Shown here: positions 1 to 50,278 of the stretch, piece by piece
Position numbering within the stretch: the first letter of the stretch is position 1
How the letters are laid out: every line of letters starts with the position of its first letter
Source of the DNA: Liolophura sinensis
Taxonomy: Eukaryota > Mollusca > Polyplacophora > Chitonida > Chitonidae
Direction: 5' to 3'
Assembly (NCBI RefSeq): GCF_032854445.1
Contig: NC_088296.1
Span: 26,924,667-26,988,666 of the forward strand
DNA length: 64,000 bases
Position numbers and translations under genes: made by a program
Notes under the pieces: generated by a model
Database searches by the model: none
Seen by the model: the letters and a program-made list of their open reading frames with translations, nothing else
Told to the model about the DNA's origin: nothing

Positions 1-1353
1 GATTTCTGGGGCACTGAAGTCTTGCGCGAAGATGATACTGTCAGGAGGTCGCTTTGTGACTGTCAAGTCGTGGTGATGAAGACTCAGTGTCCTATCTTCG
101 TACGACACGTAGTGCTCTCTGTTCTTCAGGGATTCGTACAGGTCCCTTTCTCCGATCTTCCCGATGATGAAGAACCTCTCCGGATGTTCTATACCCATGT
201 ATGGGTTTGCGCCCATGTCGTACCTCTTCAGTACGACCTCTGACCCATGTACTGCCAGGTAATCACCAGGCCTCTTTATCAGTTCTAGAGTTACCACAAA
301 CACTGGTTTCTTAGCCCTGGTATCATATCCCACGTACGTGGTTCTATTAAACGCGTCCTTTCTCCGCCTTTTCGGAGTGGGAGTCAGTTTGTCTTGAGCA
401 CGACTGTTGAAGCTGATGTAAACGTTGTGATATTTCGGCTTCAGGTGTATTTGCACAATATCGTGGACTGTTCCTACGACACGAGACTGGAACAACACTC
501 CGCCATATCCGCTGATGTGTGAGCGTTGTCGAGAGGCGTATACTCTGGCAGTTTCCATTCTTATAATATTGACTCGAACAGTGAGTTCAATTTTGAGGAA
601 TTCCTGATATCCGCTGGAGTAGTCTCCCTTGTTCTGACGACGCACAGTGAGCGTGAAGACCAGGGTTTCCTGGTGAGATGTTCGTATTACATCTCTTAGC
701 GCCTTCTGGACGTCGCTTGGCTTCTGGCCGTAAAGACGAAGGTCGTTTACTCTTAGTATCTCATGTTTTTGTTTTAACTCAGCTGCTGAGAAGGCAGAAT
801 TCTCTGTTATGTCAACCACAGTATGCCGATGTGTGTTTTGGGAATCCCGATGTGAAGCTATAAATAGACCAGTGTGAATTTTCTCTGGTAGCCCGTCCAG
901 TTTAACCATGAGCTCTTCAGCCTCTCGTGTTTGGCCGGGCCACGAATCGTCATGTGGACCAGGGCTGTCCTCCGAGTCACCCCCTGTCGGTGGATCGAAG
1001 AGAGTTGCTGGACACTCTAAACAAGCAATGTGAAAATACTGTGAGTGTCACACGTCACAAAAACTTTTTTTAACATTTAGAACTAGAAACTCAGTACATA
1101 GGCGGACAACACTTGATGTTAATGTCAACAAGTGTTAATGTGACAGTAATGCTAGACTGGGCTAAAACATTTTAGTACCATTTTTTTTACCAAATCCTAT
1201 ATGTTGGATTTAACATTAAGTACAATATTTAACATCCCAGTGTTAGGATCTTAGGATTATACCTGTGTCTATCAGTCCACAAATCTCCTCCATATCCAGC
1301 GCCGTTATGTTGGTTGCGTTTACCACAAACGAAGCGTTACGCCTTGATGCCAT
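1..1353 (-). CDS. PDZ-like plus beta-trefoil (IL-1/FGF-like) protein, cut by the window edge
   Basis: Two coding exons are visible: 1353-1263 (ATG at 1353, donor GTATAA) and 1016 to beyond position 1 (acceptor TTGTTTAG). The phase-1 junction joins correctly and gives at least 369 residues. There is no signal peptide or membrane segment. Residues 38-65 are acidic and Ser/Pro-rich. Residues about 75-157 fit a PDZ domain: VVDITENSAF, then KHEILRVNDLRL in place of the usual GDxILxVNG, ending in FTLTVRR. Residues about 185-365 have the size and C-terminal pattern of an IL-1/FGF beta-trefoil: RFFIIGKI, DLYESLKNREHYVSY, LSLH and FAQDF line up with the IL-1 pattern FxFxKI...FES...P.WYIS...F.F. A basic run, PKRRRK, lies at 245-250. 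IL-1 proteins also lack leaders, so this may be an unconventionally secreted cytokine-like protein. That role is inference; the family match is by eye. The C-terminus lies outside the window. Confidence 0.72.
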
Positions 1354-1370
1354 GATGATTTTTTTGTGTC

Positions 1371-1402
1371 TGAATACTGCAAGCGGAGCGAGAATTTATA
1401 TA
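1371..1402 (-). promoter_or_regulatory. TATA box and initiator of the PDZ/beta-trefoil gene
   Basis: On the minus strand TATATAAA occupies 1402-1395. An initiator-like TCAGAC has its A at 1371, exactly 31 bases downstream of the first T of the TATA box. The ATG follows 18 bases later at 1353, giving a very short 5' UTR. The spacing is that of a focused core promoter. Confidence 0.75.
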
Positions 1403-1422
1403 CGCAGGCTTATCTGGAGCTC

Positions 1423-1441
1423 GGAAATCCCCCTGACGTAA
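1423..1441 (-). promoter_or_regulatory. Proximal NF-kappaB site next to a CRE/ATF-like site
   Basis: The minus strand reads GGGGATTTCC at 1432-1423, a perfect match to the kappaB consensus GGGRNWYYCC, about 52-61 bases upstream of the predicted start. Directly beyond it, at 1434-1441 on the plus strand, is TGACGTAA, a CRE/ATF or C/EBP-like octamer. Adjacent kappaB and ATF-type sites are a common arrangement in inducible immune promoters. Binding is not shown here. Confidence 0.65.
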
Positions 1442-1571
1442 AACCCCGGCTATGTTTAGCACCACATCTGCTCATAACGGTCACGCGAACGCTTATTATT
1501 CAGACCGGCTATAACCATGGTATTTTATACCTATAGTGAAATTTGTGTGGACAACCGCGATGTAACACAGC

Positions 1572-1583
1572 GGGGGAATCCCC
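1572..1583. promoter_or_regulatory. Distal palindromic NF-kappaB site
   Basis: GGGGGAATCCCC is palindromic and contains GGGGAATCCC, a perfect GGGRNWYYCC match. It lies about 201-212 bases upstream of the predicted start of the PDZ/beta-trefoil gene. A weaker IRF-like element (AAACGAAA, 1634-1641) lies further upstream. Confidence 0.6.
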
Positions 1584-1904
1584 TCATACACCGCTGTACA
1601 TCCAGGCTATATGACCACATAACCTATACATAAAAACGAAAACTGTAAACAAAATACTCACAGCTGACACAAGTAAAGTGGGGGTTTTCCGATTACAAAT
1701 CCACCGCAGCACATGGTCAGCAAGCTTATCGGTTGAACCCAACTCTCGTTACTTCTTCTACGGCTTTACGTCAGATTTTGTTGTTGCTTTGGGGGACATG
1801 TGCTGGTGGTTTTCCTCACTCATAAGACCGGACTGTCGTCATAAAAGTGCTACACGTGTAGTAAAATACTACTGTACTTGTGATGCACTAATTTATTTAT
1901 TTAT

Positions 1905-2155
1905 TTACTTGACTGACCGATGTCTCACTTCACAGAGCGTCCGCTTCGAGGGCAGTAGATCCAGGTTCAATCCTGCGTCGTGTCACACCCCATTGAGGCG
2001 CATTAGTTGCCTTCGGTAAGTCGTCCCAGTGAAGCAGCACTAGATAAAAGAGCGGTGGAAATCAGTCGTGCAACACATTACATGCAGTCATATGACTGAA
2101 AAATTGTTAAGTACAGAGCTAAACCACAAGCACTCACTCACTCACCCACTCCCTT
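1905..2155 (+). mobile_element. tRNA-derived SINE, family B
   Basis: This copy shares with those at 38560-38832 and 54340-54675 the block GTGAAGCAGCACTAGAT, a GGAAATC...CGT.CAACA segment, GTTAAGTAC and a CACTCACTCACTC tail. The tRNA-like head is decayed here, but a B-box-like GGTTCAATCC survives near 1964-1973. It is about 250 bases long, non-coding and dependent on LINE machinery. Confidence 0.7.
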
Positions 2156-2219
2156 GACTGATGAATATTTTACATATCGGCAACGGTGGTCATTATTATG
2201 GTTAGAATAAACCCGATGG

Positions 2220-2408
2220 AGAATACACTTGTTACACATATTGTTTTCCTCTCCGGCCGTAATTGGGAAGGTCTGGCAGCTACCTGCGGATGGTCGTGGG
2301 GTTCCCCCGGGCTCTGCCCGGTTTCCTCCCACCATAATGGTGGCCGCCGTCGTAGAAGTGAAATATTTTTGAGTATGGCGTAAAACACCAATCAAATAAA
2401 TACATAAA
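2220..2408 (+). mobile_element. SINE, family A (3' body)
   Basis: The body matches the family found throughout the window: TCTCCGGCCGT, GGATGGTCGTGGG, CCGGGCTCTGCCCGGTTTCC, CACCATAATG, then GGCGTAAAACACCAATCAAA and an A/T-rich (AAAT)n tail. The tRNA-like head is missing or decayed. Confidence 0.85.
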
Positions 2409-5345
2409 TTAATACATATTGTTTAAGAGTAGTGGCATTAACTGGGACATACGGTAGTTGGCAAATGATCAAACGTATCTCATGAAGTCCGACTTCTTGC
2501 ATGTCCATTTTTAGCGTATAGTGTTTTATTTTAATTGTATATTTTTGTGTGTTTATTTTTCTGGCATAAATGGAAATGCTGTACTTTCTGGTAAAGCGAC
2601 GTAGAGATAACATCGGTTACACAGAAGTTCAAGAAGTGTACACAAAATGATACCACGCATAGGATGAAATCCGACTAGTTGTCAGTTTATCTCACATAGG
2701 TCTTTATTCTAACATTTTTGTTGTTGAGAAGTTTCCTTGATAAAATTAAAAACACTACTTTCTGGTAAAATGACTATGAGGTAACGTCACTTACATGACA
2801 GTACGAGAACCGTCTATTCGCGAGTGAGTTTTACCTACACGTCATCCTTCCCCAAATAGGCAATGATTTCATGGTGGTATTTATTTACATCTGTCCTACA
2901 ACGGTGATACGCTTGAGAGAATCGCTCTGCACAATGTGTACCATACAAACTGGCACACCGATATATGACAACGATATATCAGAGCATCCACAAGATCTGA
3001 CGTCGAAGTGAACGATGTGGTTGATTTGCTGTCACCTGCCAAAAGCCGTTGGCTTACCCCCGCTTATTACCTATAGTGCTGAAAATAGTCATTAGGCTAC
3101 TGCATGTACATTTCAGTCACGCCTTATGCATGTGTCAGCTCAGACCGTGAGCATCGACAGCATCCTGACGCGCAGCCCCTAGGCTCGAAGGACTGAAGGC
3201 CTGACTTTGTGCTGTCCAGACAAAACGCTTTTTGAGAAATTTTTCTAGCGTATTCATTCTTTATATCCACTTGTTTCGTGTGTAAATTATGACCCATTGA
3301 TGAATTACTTGGAAATACAGCCACACTATGAACTTTTATAATCTCATTACGTATACATATGTATAATCTTATGAAAAGTAATAACCCCGAAGCATGGAGT
3401 ACCTCATTTACAGAAGCGTAACGGACCGTGTTCTGTTTAGGACATTCCAAATTCTGTTGATTTACGATGATTCTTCGATCTTCCTAGTGGAAACATATCA
3501 TTCAGAATAAAGAATGTAAAGTACATCCACAGAAATAAACTGACAAAATTCATAAATTCGGCAATAAACTTTGAAAGAAATGGATTTCTACTCAGTTGAA
3601 ACGTTTTCTGCGTGGTGAAAGCGCTTTCCTCGCGGTGTAAATATCTTCTTGGCGGAGAAAAGGTTTACTCCTCGCGGAAAAGGTTTAGACCTACATTACG
3701 GACAAAAGGGTCACATCGCTGTTATGTGCACGACTGCCGTCAGTTTCTAAATTTAGCTTGCCACTGTTTACATTCGCTGAGTTCGGCGCCTGCTGTCTGC
3801 CTCTGCCTTAGAGTGTTCCAGAATGCGCGCAGTTCGGTGCCTGTTTGTTTACATCAAGTGTTCAGGATTTTTCTTATTCTAGACAATTCCACCAGGTTAT
3901 ATAAGACCTATGAAAGCAGGTCAAACGGAGAGAACAGAGAACGGAGAAAGGAGAATTACTGAGAGCTTGGATACTTTTGCTGTGTATTACTTTAGCAGGC
4001 CTTTTGTGCTGAATTTTGGTGTCTTTTAAAGCCTCTGGCTTTGTTATATCCTATCTCCACCGAGAACTTGTTCAGTCTGAACTTGTATGTTTAATTTGTG
4101 CTCTTGTATACACTGTGCCTATTAGTACACGGACCCTGTCTGACGTGACAAACCTGTGTAATGTGATTCAATCAACAAATTGGGTCAAGATTACTGTGTA
4201 TTTTACTACCTCGAACTTCTGAAATGAATGAATGATTATGACTTTACGCCACATCGGCAATATTTCAGCCATATCGTGGCGATGAACTTCTGAAATAAGT
4301 TTAGTAAACTTGCGTGGAAGGTAATTCAGAATTAAACATTACTATGTGCGCACTCTTTAGAAAAGTCTTCACTGTTTCTGAATTCTACTAGGGTACATTT
4401 TAGCATCACTCGCACAACAGATTTTCTATTAAACTTGAGAGATTTATTGTTTTAGTACAGTTTCCTTTAAGGTACGCCCTATGCTTTTTTCTGATAAAAA
4501 AATAAATCAATAAATAAATAAAGAAATAAGATGACATATATGCAATTTGTGTGAGCTTACAGATTTACGGTGTAGCTTTATCACACTAAATCGTTAGGAA
4601 TGGGCCCGTAATCGTCAATGCTGTTTCGATTTGCCTTTATATTTGTACATATCTATGTAAACAGTATATTATAGTCCGTCATGCCAAATAACACACCTCA
4701 CCCACACTGGACGTAAACCAGATTGGCTGACCTGTTCATCGTTACATAATTATACATGCTGTGAAATCATGTATGTATCAACTATTGTTGTGATTCCGGT
4801 GATAACCTACACAGATTTGTGCGGCTCAGAAAAACAACATCGTGTATACTGTTGTTAGAAGGCTCATAAAGCTATGTATATTAGTCCCTCTAAACCAGAC
4901 CATCCTAACCTGCTTTTTTCTTAGGGCCACGGTCCTCTGCATAAGGAGAGTACATGTATATCAACCAATGGAATATCACTACAGTAGTCATGGTATACAC
5001 ACAGCACGAGCCAGAGCAAACAAATGAAGAGAACTTTGCTATACCTGCTTATTGGCTAACAATATGACCTGGTTTATCGACACATCATTTTTTAGAATTC
5101 CCCAGAGAGGTGGACGAGATTTGGCAGTAGTTCATTACCTGGTTGGCCTTAGGCCCGTTGGCCATGTGCAAGCCAGGTGTATATGTCTTTTTTTTGTCCC
5201 TTGGCACGCGACGTCCGTATCAAAAGAATCGCAGCATAACGGGCACAATCCGTGTAGAGTGTACTGAGTAGGTATTACAAGTATTAATACTGGTCAGTAA
5301 GTTTCATAAAATTTGTTAAAGATAGGTAGTTTATTCCCCGTACTC
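2409..5345. other. No gene seen
   Basis: A/T-rich DNA with short ORFs lacking protein-like composition or splice context. A short element around 4222-4292 (ACTTTACGCCACATCGGCAA..., ATATCGTGGCGA) resembles the 3' end of another repeat family common in gastropods. GCGGxGAAA-type short repeats lie near 3610-3690. Confidence 0.5.
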
Positions 5346-17609: not shown

Positions 17610-20600
17610 TCAGGAAGTGCTTATCATATCACGGAGAACTTGAGGCAGAGTTGCACAGTCACCCGTTACCAGACGAGCAGACACAGATCCAGACGCGACA
17701 CCAAACTCAACCCATGGCACGAGAGGCTCTGTGACGATAACACCACTGACTGTGCCTATTACCTGGTTGTTGTCACAGCCCAGGACTGTCAGTGTGTGTT
17801 CATCACAGTCCAGGTACACACCCAGGTGATGAGGTCGTGTGTAACGTCTGCACTGTCGATAGCCAGGTTTGATCTCACCACCACTGTGACTATAACACTC
17901 GACCTCATCACCACGGTACATCATCCCAATGTACCAGGTGTTACGGCCACCGTCTGTCTCCTCACTCACACCACGGCTCTCCTGTGTCACTCCTACACCA
18001 CAGTAACAGTCATGTGAACAGGTGATGTGTATCTCCCAGTAGTACCTGCCCGTGTGGTGACGCCCGTCTGTCACAGCTCTCCACCACCACTCGGACAAGC
18101 CCTTACCCTTTATCACACAGCCGCTGTCAGTGATTCTCAGCTTCCTGTCGTCTGTCTCTGTGAATCTCAGCGTCGGCTCTGCAAAAACACAACAGAAGCA
18201 GCATGAACAACAGAAAATCATCAACACACGCTGTGAGACTGAGGTGTAAATACCTGTACACATACCGTAGTTTTACCTTCTCAACACAATCTCTTGGACT
18301 AAAATGACACATATCGCTGGTATGAATGTAATTTATACACGGATCTCTGTCATTTTCAGCCAGTTTAAGAGTTGAGTTTCGACAAGAACTGGATCCATCA
18401 CTAAATGACGGGTACGACACAGACCAAGTACTGGGTTAAAATACAGACTTTTAACGCTCTAATTTGTTTGAAGCTTATCACTTACAACAAGAACAATACC
18501 TTCCTCTATCCGACACAGGGTTTTAGTTGTCAGTTATAGCACATATGAGCACACAATTCACTATGAAGCTGTAGTAGGCCTGTTGGTGTAACGAGCTACC
18601 GAAGCCGTCCGTGTAGTAGGGGAGGTAACTCGCCACACATAACCTCCCAAGTAACATTGCCCCAAAGACTATTTAATCCATCAGAATAATTAGTAGTAAA
18701 AAAGTATTGCATTCAGTTTTCGTCAATAGATTTTTTAAAAGAGAGTTAATATATTTAAATATTAAAAACAAACTTTTATCAAGCGAGGAAATACATCTAG
18801 GTCAACAATTTTTTCTATATACATAATGGAATCTTTTACCCTTTATTATTGATAATGAAACAAATATGAGGGTTGTTTTCTCTCTGAAATAAGTGTTTGA
18901 CTACATTTGAATCTAGCAAATAATGGTGAGTTTTTACTTGGATACTTGTTTAATAATTAAGAGACATGACATATATTCTGTTATCAGATATATGTGTTAA
19001 ATATTCCAGGTCTAGACACTGAGGGATTGGTTACAATACGTTATCTGTTCTGTACACCTGGTAGTTTGTCCATATGGTTTAAATATCACTCAGACACTCA
19101 GGGGTACAATATGTTACCTGTTCTGTTCTAACAGTACATCTACTGGTTTGTCCACATAGGGTAAATATCACTCAGACACTCAGGGGTACAATATGTTACC
19201 TGTTCTGTTCTAACAGTACATCTACTGGTTTGTCTACATGGGGTAAATATCACTCAGACACTCAGGGGTACAGTATCTTATTTATTCTGTCCTAACAGTA
19301 CACCTGCTGGTTTGTACACCTGGAAGGCATGCTGGCTTCCTCTCCGGCCGTAAGTAGGAAGGTTATCTTTCTTGCCAACCATTTGCTTGCCTGACATTAG
19401 TTTGTATCTTTCTTGCTCATCATTTGCATGCCTGACATTAGTTTGTATCTGCTTTTGCCCACACTATTGCATGCCTCACATTAGTTTGTATCTTTCTTGC
19501 CCTCCATTTGCATGCCTCACATTAGTTTGTATCTTTCTTGCCTATCATTTGCATGCCTCACATTAGTTTGTATCTGTTTTTGCCCACACTAATGCATGCC
19601 TCACATTAGTTTGTATCTGTTTTTGGCAAACACTATTGCATGCCTCACATTAGTTTGTATCTGTTTTTGCCAACACTAATGCATGCCTCACATTAGTTTG
19701 TATCTGTTTTTGCCCACACTATTGCATGCCTCACATTAGTTTGTATCTGTTTTTGCCCACACTATTGCATGCCTCACATTAGTTTGTATCTGTTTTTGCC
19801 CACACTATTGCATGCCTCACATTAGTTTGTATCTGTTTTGCCCACATTATTGCATGCCTCACATTAGTTTGTATCTGTTTTTGCCCACACTATTGCATGC
19901 CTCACATTAGTTTGTGTCTTTCTTACCCTCCATTTGCATGCCTCACATTAGTTTGTATCTTTCTTGCCCTCCATTTGCATGCCTCACATTAGGTTGTATC
20001 TTTTTTGGCCACCTTATTGCATGCCTCACATTAGTTTGTGTCTTCCTTGCCCAATATTTGCATGCCTCACATTAGTTTGTATCTTTTTCACCACACTATT
20101 ACATGTCACACATTAGTTTGTATATTTGTTGCCCACCCTATTGCATGCCTCACATTAGTTTGTATCTGTTTTGCCCACCTTATTGCTTGCATCACATTAG
20201 TTTGTATCATTTTTGCCCACACTATTGCATGCCTCACATTAGTTTGTATCTGTTTTGCCCACCTTATTGCTTGCATCACATTAGTTTGTATCTGTTTTGC
20301 CCACCTTATTGCTTGCATCACATTAGTTTGTATCATTTTTGCACACGCTATTGCATGCATCACATTAGTTTGTATCTGTTTTTGCCCACCCTGTTGCATG
20401 CCTCACACTAGTTTGTATCATTTTGCCCACGCTACTGCATGTCTCTCATGAGTTAGTATCTGTTTTGCCCACCTTATTGCATGCCTCACATTAGTTTGTA
20501 TCGGGTTTGCCCACCTCATTGCATGCCTCACATTAGTTTGTATCGGGTTTGCCCACCTCATTGCATGCCTCACATTAGTTTGTATCGGGTTTGCCCACCT

Positions 20601-23600: not shown

Positions 23601-24910
23601 ACAGAAGACAGCTTTATCAAGATGATTGACAGCTGTATGTTACCTAGATTTGTGAATGATAGCAATACTCTACATAGTCCAAATTTATTCACCAGGGTGT
23701 GCGGTACAATGCAGGCTGAAGAAGTGCCCTGAAAAATACTAACCTGTATCTTCTTGCGCAGCCTCATAACTCCTGACAGTGATTCTTTAGATTCTTGTAA
23801 GACTTTCTCCAGTTCACTAGTCTTGTGTAAAACAGCTGACTGTAATGGGAAAAACGCTACAGTAACAAATCCGCCTTTCAAACGACAAACTAGAGTGCAG
23901 GACAAAAACTCCATTCTTCTCTAAATATCACAAACTTTGGGTGAATATATAGTTCCAAATCATGCCATACCTATTTTGAGTATCGACATATATACTAGCA
24001 TGGTACACGATTTAGACAGTGGTTTAAGTTATTCTACTGGAACATTCCTTGCGTCTTTTTAACATCATTGAAAACTGTTTACTACTTTTCTTAGCATAGT
24101 TCCAAAGTAATTTTGAACTGACGCAGTTTCTTAATTTTTTTCCGTGGTTCGTGTTAATCGTTGCTTTGGGAATTGACGTTGCAGTTATTGACTCTGAACA
24201 TCTATTTTGGTTGATGGCTGATATACGAATGTCTTTTTCCCCATTACCTTGTCATTCGCAACTGCAGATGGTATATCCCGCATAGCATGTTCCGGGTGGT
24301 CAACCACACACCCCATACAGATCACCATCCGACACGGTACACAGTACAAGCCGAAAGGCTGACCGTGCCTAACACAGGACGGCTGCTGAGTTGATTGGTG
24401 GTCCCTGCTAACTTGACCCTGTGAGGTTTCCTGGGAGAGGTATTTCAGGGAGGAAATCAGCCGATGCCGTTTTAGAGGACCCCTCGTTGGATGGTAATTT
24501 GTAAGACATTCCTGACAGTACAACACATTGCAGTTGGTACAAAACTTGACAGCTTTAGCATGGTTGTCCTCACACATAGAACAATACGGGATGTCATCCT
24601 TAGCCTTTACAGCAGAGAACTTCTCCACAATTTCCGCCAGGTGAAAGTTGGGAGGCAGACCAGCCACACCTTTTCTCCCCAGACTAGTCGGTGCCCGACA
24701 CACAGGGCATGCTATCTGCTGATCAACGTTCTCATTCCCCGTGCTGCCGGAGGTCTTATCTGTCTGTACAGGTTTGGACTTGTCAACATACAAACCAATG
24801 CATTCTCTACAAAAACTGTGCTGACAGGGTAGCATTACTGGTTCCCGGAATGTTGCCATACATATCGAACATGTGAGAACATCATCTCGATTCTGCTTGC
24901 TTTCGGCCAT
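17610..24910 (-). CDS. TRIM family RING-type E3 ubiquitin ligase with a B30.2/SPRY domain
   Basis: Six coding exons: 24910-24248 (663 nt), 23839-23744 (96), 22985-22755 (231), 22375-22344 (32, least certain), 21922-21735 (188) and 18178-17610 (569, TGA). All phases agree and give about 592 residues. RING: C14-C17, C29, H31, C34-C37, C68-C71. B-box 1 spans about 110-150 and B-box 2 is C179VRH182 to H205/H208. Coiled coil spans about 222-400. B30.2/SPRY starts at about 405 (PTLRFTETDDRKL, TGRYYWEIHI, WYIGMM, LGVYLDCDEHTLTVLGCDNN). TRIM proteins are cytosolic or nuclear ubiquitin ligases whose SPRY domain selects the target; many act in antiviral defence. The 96- and 231-nt coiled-coil exons are the lengths typical of vertebrate TRIM genes. 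The member and target cannot be named. An acceptor-like TTTGATTTCAG just upstream of the ATG suggests an intron in the 5' UTR. Confidence 0.92.
19375..21150. repeat. VNTR of about 43-bp units in the last TRIM intron
   Basis: About 40 head-to-tail units of GCATGCCTCACATTAGTTTG plus TATCTGTTTTGCCCACxxTATT. The left edge follows a family A SINE fragment (19329-19362, GCTGGCTTCCTCTCCGGCCG). Long ORFs in both directions through the array are repeat artefacts. A diverged zone continues to about 21700. Confidence 0.97.
21151..21314. repeat. Two identical-looking 82-bp units at the VNTR edge
   Basis: A higher-order unit, made of two diverged 43-bp-type monomers, repeats at 21151 and 21233, with the start of a third at 21315. 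It contains CACCTCAATGGATGACTGAC in each copy. Confidence 0.85.
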
Positions 24911-25639
24911 TATTCTCTTGGGGTATTTTTTCTGAAATCAAAACGGCAAATCGCTCAGACTGGCAGCTATGAGGTTGTCCCTACTTACAAAAGTATTAAC
25001 GTTCAAGACAGCACACTGCCTCCGTCTGTTCTCGTGGTCCAACAACATATTGGGTACGGTAGTGTTAGTCGTTATTTCCCAATTCTCATTTAAGAAGCAT
25101 TAAAGCGCATATACATGTTCGAGGAGGGTATGTGCATGTCGCTTTCCCGGAAAGGAATTCATTCTGGTCAGTTAGAAAATTAGCTATTCTACCTTTCATT
25201 ACGCACGAGAGACTTTTTTTACAAAGGTATGGTCAAGACGGTTTGGGCAGATGTGTTCGATAGTATATAGCTTCCACCCAGAATTAGCAGATTTGTGTGG
25301 TTACGAAGGTAACTTGACCCTAAATACTGTACGATAATAGGCCCAAACCTTTGGAACATCTCTATCTGCCGAATTTTAGAAATATAATAAATATCACATT
25401 ACTAATAGTGACCAGTAACACGAACATTTCTTACTGAGATTTAAACGTATATAAATTTAGGTCAAAGTCTTCCAGCTCCCAGTGTTTTATTATGTTATTG
25501 TCAGAAACCACAAAAGTACAGACTACAACAGAGCTGCTATACCCTCCAATCAACACTGATCAAACAAAATGTTTAAAGCGTAAATGCTGACTTCGCTCCA
25601 CCCTAAAAGTGTGAAGTATATGTCCAATTAGATACAGTA

Positions 25640-40936: not shown

Positions 40937-49183
<8,247 letters not shown>

Positions 49184-50278
49184 TTTAAAATTTCACTGTG
49201 TCTGTAACATTAGAAGTAAATAAAATTACGTCAAATAAGTATTTTATCCAAGTCCATAACTTTGCACTATCTCTGATCGTTTGAATGGAACTAAAGGGTA
49301 CAGAGATTCCTTTCTTGTACCATTGATAAAACGTGTATACACATGTAAACATTTTTTGTGGATGGAACACTTCATGTGAATGGAACGTTATACACGTGTA
49401 AACACTTCATGTAGATGGCACGTGCAAACACTTTCACTTTTGGTATCACGGGCAGGAAAAGGGTTAGCATTTGATGATCGTATTTACAACACACCAACAT
49501 TTAACGGCGGTGTCTACCTATAGACATGGGAATCCATTTTCCCTAGGTCCACCGTTCTGACTAACAGAGAGAATACACAAGAGCTGAGGAACCCACAAAT
49601 TCCATGCTCAACAGTGGACCAGCACCTCTTGTGTCCTCTTGTCAAAGACAAGCGTCCTGACCCCTCCGCCATGTCCCGGATATTTCCATATACATATGGA
49701 ACAAGCCTAAATAGGACTAGTACTTGCTTCCCACGCACTGTCCTTACCAATATCACACCGGCACAACATTCAAACGTCAAATTTTCAATTTATGTTGATG
49801 AAATCCGTTAGACCATTCCAGTCGAGTATATCAATAAAAATTTCTAATTCAATATGATCCAAATGATTTGAAAACTAAACCTTACAAGATTCAAAAAACA
49901 CACACAATCAACATCGTCCTCCCCCTAGTTCATCGAGGATCTTGAAACTTAAGTCCTCTAGACCCAAATCACAGACACTGCCACCATGACACACATTCAG
50001 ATTCAAATCATAGACAACCGTAAGAAGGACATAGAAAGATACAGCAGTAATTCGTACTGACCTGCCATTTAAACCACACAGTCCACAAGGCTTTCCGCAA
50101 AATGTACGGCTTTAGGCCCTTCTTTTGTACACGGTATAGGGAATATAACCTGACAGGTCAGGTACGAGGAAGGCTCGTTGTTACATGCTCCAATAAATCA
50201 CAACGGACCACATGTTCAAACTCCTATCAATTAGTTTTGGTCATCATTAAAAAATTCGTTGCTGGTCGTAAGACGACC
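49184..50278. other. Upstream region of the GRDP-like gene; no coding sequence seen
   Basis: A probable acceptor lies just before the start codon. A short repeated word, ACACATGTAAACA / ACACGTGTAAACACTTCATG (49339-49415), occurs upstream. No confident promoter was found. Confidence 0.45.

Follow-up and report, generated by a model that had tools for sequence, protein, structure and literature searches.

A leaderless two-exon gene of Liolophura sinensis with a probable PDZ-like domain and an orphan beta-rich C-terminal region

Does a gene at the left end of a 64,000-nt stretch of the Liolophura sinensis genome encode a protein that joins a PDZ-like domain to a beta-trefoil of the IL-1/FGF type, and would such a protein be a cytokine or an intracellular scaffold? 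The stretch, hereafter the window (assembly GCF_032854445.1, contig NC_088296.1, positions 26,924,667 to 26,988,666), had been read before from its letters alone, and that sequence-only reading had proposed the pairing. The features at issue are given here in window positions.

1263..1353, minus strand: exon 1, opening with the ATG at 1353 and comprising 30 codons and one further base, beginning MASRRNASFVVNATNITALDMEEICGLIDT.
1017..1262, minus strand: intron with GT...TTTAG ends, phase 1.
1..1016, minus strand: exon 2, an open frame that passes the left edge of the window without a stop.
637..894, minus strand: PDZ-like domain, residues ~72-157, recognised by sub-cut-off Pfam PDZ_2 matches and weak PDB sequence matches.
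1..636, minus strand: beta-rich C-terminal region, residues 158-369, a proposed and unproven beta-trefoil.
358..375, minus strand: basic stretch PKRRRK, where K[KR]x[KR] occurs once in the protein, a possible nuclear localisation signal.
16..177, minus strand: stretch from RFFIIGKI to FAQDF, compared with IL-1 in the sequence-only reading and assessed here by motif scores.

Joining both exons in matching phase gave 369 residues without a stop between window positions 1353 and 1 on the minus strand. The open stretch comprises 349 codons in the window and 375 codons in a second copy, which is 98% identical, lies 45.6 kb leftward on the same contig and keeps both exons, the splice sites and the frame. 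Since no frame longer than 216 codons arose in 60 random 64-kb windows with matching dinucleotide composition, the frame of the gene exceeds all of them. The two-exon gene is thus real, and its length, splice sites and second copy confirm the exon structure, phase match and 369 residues first proposed. The C-terminal end of the window's own copy is unreadable because ~5,000 N bases lie directly to the left of the window. In the second copy, the exon 2 frame meets a stop 26 codons beyond the edge of the window copy and ends ...FAQDFSAPEISSGSSIFSGLLALIGATIEAVRRTAK, so that the whole protein there has 395 residues.

The surrounding genome assembly amounts to 609 Mb in 632 contigs. On the minus strand of the window we also observed a 220-codon open frame that carries a SPRY domain (17610-18272, Pfam E = 1.3e-06), a TRIM-like protein with a RING finger and a B-box (24185-24937; zf-RING_UBOX E = 1.5e-10, zf-B_box E = 6.3e-10) and a GRDP-like protein (47711-49192; Pfam PF07173, E = 1.4e-44). 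A glycine-rich frame at 40937-41983, also on the minus strand, matched no Pfam family at E up to 0.01 and may be the tail of the GRDP-like protein.

Comparison of the two copies showed 1 mismatch in the 91 bases of exon 1, 17 mismatches in the 1016 bases of exon 2, and 12 mismatches plus 3 gap columns in the intron, where 245 bases were aligned. Taking sites as independent, divergence was lower in coding sequence (18/1107) than in the intron (12/245; Fisher P = 0.006) and in the 5′ flank (51/1473; P = 0.004). The dN/dS ratio between the copies was 0.60; the 6 synonymous changes and 12 others behind it are too few to prove constraint. The 5′ flank was duplicated with the gene (window 1354-2853 against 2855-4354 of the second-copy stretch), and its copies are separated by indels of 2 to ~25 bases, including a 12-base indel within an AAAT repeat.

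Searching the genome with the protein returned the two copies, one chance match in a serine-/arginine-rich frame (E = 1.77) and nothing else, and the C-terminal 204 residues alone returned the same two copies only. Inside the window, tblastn found, apart from the gene, a single chance match of 14 residues, and a search of viral contigs for relatives gave 9 pattern matches with 0 confirmed. The gene may stem from a local duplication of recent date, or both haplotypes of one locus may have entered the assembly. An explanation built on the second possibility is that one locus was assembled twice and that the gene encodes a lineage-specific protein, quick to evolve and unremarkable in its architecture. 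It would account for the 95-99% identity, not counting gaps, at which both exons, the intron and 1.5 kb of flanking sequence on the 5′ side are duplicated, and also for a genome search that yielded no third copy and no diverged paralogue. We nevertheless consider it unlikely, given two copies that stand 45.6 kb apart on one contig and differ in 11 of 369 residues; moreover, it concerns copy number and not the domain question.

Several searches pointed to a PDZ domain in the first half of the protein. PDZ_2 was the top Pfam family for both copies, with E values of 0.025 and 0.028 for their long frames and of 0.0021 to 0.0027 for sub-pieces; the corresponding 15.1-18.7 bits fall short of the curated 27-bit cut-off, and the 12.8 bits of the Pfam PDZ profile fall short of its cut-off of 23.2. 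When the 349 residues were compared with the PDB by phmmer at E up to 10, all 6 chains matched were PDZ by name, the class of PDB chains being taken from their names throughout. The PDZ piece alone matched 7 chains at E up to 1, six of them PDZ by name (the matched PDZ chains were from Whirlin, KIAA1526, Bazooka and C60-1) and one a designed protein. A profile made from the two copies gave a mixed result, with 10 chains of which 4 were PDZ by name and 5 were UvrB, and a designed protein ranked first.

Modelling added little to this signal. AlphaFold2 without an alignment gave the PDZ piece a pLDDT of 46.5, and the order of strands and helices in that model follows that of a PDZ, which is weak evidence. 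Foldseek returned 96 matches for the model, with 0 at E up to 0.001 and a best E of 0.61; none was PDZ by name among the 50 of 96 matches listed, which has little meaning at such model confidence. Taken together, the sequence matches indicate that a PDZ domain is probably present, and we hold this with considerable confidence. The placement of a PDZ-like domain at residues ~75-157 in the sequence-only reading thus stands as regards the top Pfam family and most PDB matches, with the qualification that all scores fall under the cut-offs and that the two-copy profile is mixed.

The C-terminal region behaved differently in the same kinds of search. The motifs RFFIIGKI, LYESLKNREHYVSY, LSLH and FAQDF are present in the sequence exactly as they had been quoted, but in the unbiased tests they were not significantly similar to IL-1. 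At E up to 10, Pfam assigned no family to seven pieces of the C-terminal half (five from the window and two from the second copy), a PDB sequence search found no chain for the last 212 or the last 140 residues of the window frame, and the two-copy profile of the region matched no PDB chain. The last 101 residues matched G-protein-signaling modulator 2, a helical-repeat protein (4 chains, E 1.2-1.5); this match was regarded as chance. AlphaFold2 without an alignment modelled residues 158-369 at a mean pLDDT of 35.0, with mostly strands in the second half of the model.

A beta-trefoil in the C-terminal half is a hypothesis that we regard as possible but not probable. Joined to a role inside the cell, it gives an explanation that we find doubtful, namely that the C-terminal domain folds as a beta-trefoil, in the broad class that includes IL-1, FGF and fascin, and that the protein is an intracellular scaffold and no cytokine. 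Its appeal is that the strand-like spacing of the last ~100 residues fits IL-1 beta by eye and that a semi-global alignment to IL-1 beta takes the register of the sequence-only reading, at an ordinary score (z 0.1 to 2.9, depending on the scoring scheme). This agreement did not extend to other family members, as the register of IL-1 alpha was rotated and the alignments of IL-18 and IL-36 gamma lay elsewhere. Among 14 proteins compared by pairwise alignment, IL-1 alpha had the top z in all four scorings (2.8 to 4.8). We dropped these values as support for a trefoil because of the wrong register, the number of proteins compared, the z of 4.0 that FGF7 reached in one scoring scheme and the z of 3.6 that FGF2 reached against the PDZ half. 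A self-repeat test also counted against the trefoil scaffold, since no internal threefold repeat rose above shuffles.

The FES-PG-WF motif has been reported for the IL-1 family (PMC12108812). Our strict IL-1 signature, built around FES..P..WF, was found at 5 of 9 positions, a count reached by 1084 of 2000 shuffles and thus at chance level; in the human IL-1 family, IL-33 has 5 and the other nine members have 6 to 9. A loosened motif scored 9 of 11 at YESLKNREHYVSY, which only 3 of 2000 shuffles reached, and which speaks for the trefoil scaffold and for an IL-1-type cytokine alike. The motif was loosened after the match had been seen, however, and is biased toward a trefoil. On the same scale the ten IL-1 members score 7 to 11 (IL-33, 7) and four FGFs score 5 to 7.

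Profile comparisons were negative. With hhalign, the C-terminal half obtained 0.2% with the IL-1 alignment and 0.2% with the FGF alignment, against the trefoil scaffold; the best IL-1 alignment spanned 18 columns and lay elsewhere than first placed, and the PDZ half obtained 0.4% against IL-1, so that the C-terminal half did no better. As a yardstick, run in local mode (global mode gives a like ranking), each of ten human IL-1 proteins was left out and compared with the other nine, and nine of the ten returned 69-99.9% but IL-33 only 3.6%, while each of four FGFs left out returned 99.9%. A typical IL-1 relative would therefore have been visible, and one like IL-33 perhaps not. Across families, FGF2 reached 48.8% against the IL-1 profile, whereas FGF1, FGF7 and FGF9 stayed at 0.2 to 1.3%; comparing the IL-1 profile with the FGF profile, which share the fold, gave 3.7%. 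Sequence alone is therefore insufficient evidence against a very divergent trefoil.

In HMM comparisons, the score with the IL-1 profile was -1.2; of 2000 shuffles, 1224 were reported and 300 scored at least as high, and the reversed sequence surpassed it at 0.6. The score with the FGF profile was reached by 390 of 2000 shuffles (1499 reported). Searched against the genome at E up to 10, the IL-1 family PF00340 gave no match, a result of little weight because the controls went undetected too. At the same threshold, the FGF family PF00167 matched 8 stretches on two contigs (best E = 2.5e-11), none of them at the gene; that this model detects FGF exons at other places in the genome but not the gene is a further point against the trefoil scaffold. 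Of the profiles whose use had been advised, the PDZ profile thus returned its family on top, under the cut-off, and the IL-1 and FGF profiles returned no significant match. Overall, the IL-1/FGF-like beta-trefoil has been neither established nor disproved; save for the loosened motif, the results from sequence were negative or inconsistent.

Could the protein be a cytokine all the same? As that explanation would have it, the gene encodes an invertebrate IL-1-type cytokine with a PDZ pro-region, which would be released without a leader, have its trefoil freed by cleavage and act through an Ig-TIR receptor. We judge this very unlikely. In its favour, besides the loosened motif, the start of the protein does not resemble a signal peptide: in the first 15 windows of 17 residues the Kyte-Doolittle mean is at most 0.77, computed on the second copy, whose exon 1 encodes the same residues. 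The protein had been called leaderless, and this hydropathy bears the description out, although the trait is not specific to the IL-1 family. The KRRR stretch would also suit a cytokine, as nuclear action is described for IL-1 alpha and IL-33 in a 2022 review (PMC9020223). In the genome, the TIR domain (PF01582) was found in 103 stretches at E up to 0.001. That domain is common to IL-1 receptors and Toll-like receptors.

Against a cytokine stand the negative outcome of the unbiased family tests and the lack of an evident cleavage site, the sole aspartate in residues 142-190 lying in NKGD|Y. The same review states that IL-1-receptor-like genes exist in invertebrates and that no IL-1 orthologue or ligand gene was known outside vertebrates (PMC9020223), and the abstract of another 2022 article describes IL-1 as a vertebrate innovation (PMC9382457). 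In the second copy, the most hydrophobic window of 17 residues is the tail SIFSGLLALIGATIEAV, with a mean Kyte-Doolittle value of 1.81, followed by RRTAK; it includes an acidic residue and may form an amphipathic helix instead of anchoring the protein. The second copy contains two cysteines only, at residues 25 and 32. A hydrophobic and basic tail together with the absence of cysteine after residue 32 fits an intracellular protein at least as well as a cytokine.

We therefore favour, as the most likely explanation and with about an even chance, an intracellular adaptor that pairs a PDZ domain with a beta-rich orphan domain. It starts from direct observations: the gene structure, two copies that are open over the compared part, the weak PDZ signal, the leaderless start and the composition of the tail. 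In such an adaptor, the probable variant PDZ domain would bind the C-terminal tail of one partner and the beta-rich C-terminal domain would bind a second one, while the hydrophobic C-terminal stretch and the basic residues might hold the protein at a membrane inside the cell. If an IL-1-type trefoil were real, it would put the ligand side of IL-1 outside vertebrates, beside a domain not known there; without proof of the trefoil, the gene is one more lineage-specific PDZ-like protein.

In the literature, none of the titles listed by our search names a protein with a PDZ domain and a beta-trefoil, preprints and most subscription journals lying outside its range. An article on LIMLE and C15orf26 (PMC3976354) surfaced for trefoil, PDZ and IL-16 and was set aside as unrelated, the sole mention of PDZ in its retrieved text being a reference title.

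Among known systems, the FGFs share with the gene the proposed fold class only; they differ in hhalign, where left-out FGFs reach 99.9% and the gene 0.2%, and in that the FGF model matches other loci. The IL-1 family also lacks a signal-peptide-like start, and YESLKNREHYVSY resembles FES-PG-WF, but the strict signature at chance level, the equally low hhalign value and the PDZ-like domain in front set the gene apart. Pro-interleukin-16 is both a PDZ protein and a cytokine; the difference is that there the PDZ domain itself acts as the cytokine. With respect to known PDZ proteins, the exons seen here carry one PDZ domain and then a region matching no known domain. The matches to the PDZ chains of Whirlin and Bazooka/Par-3 are weak (E 0.037 or worse); ENSAFSAAELKQKHEILRVNDLRLYG in the gene aligned with GGSAHNCGQLKVGHVILEVNGLTLRG in the PDZ chains of Whirlin and KIAA1526.
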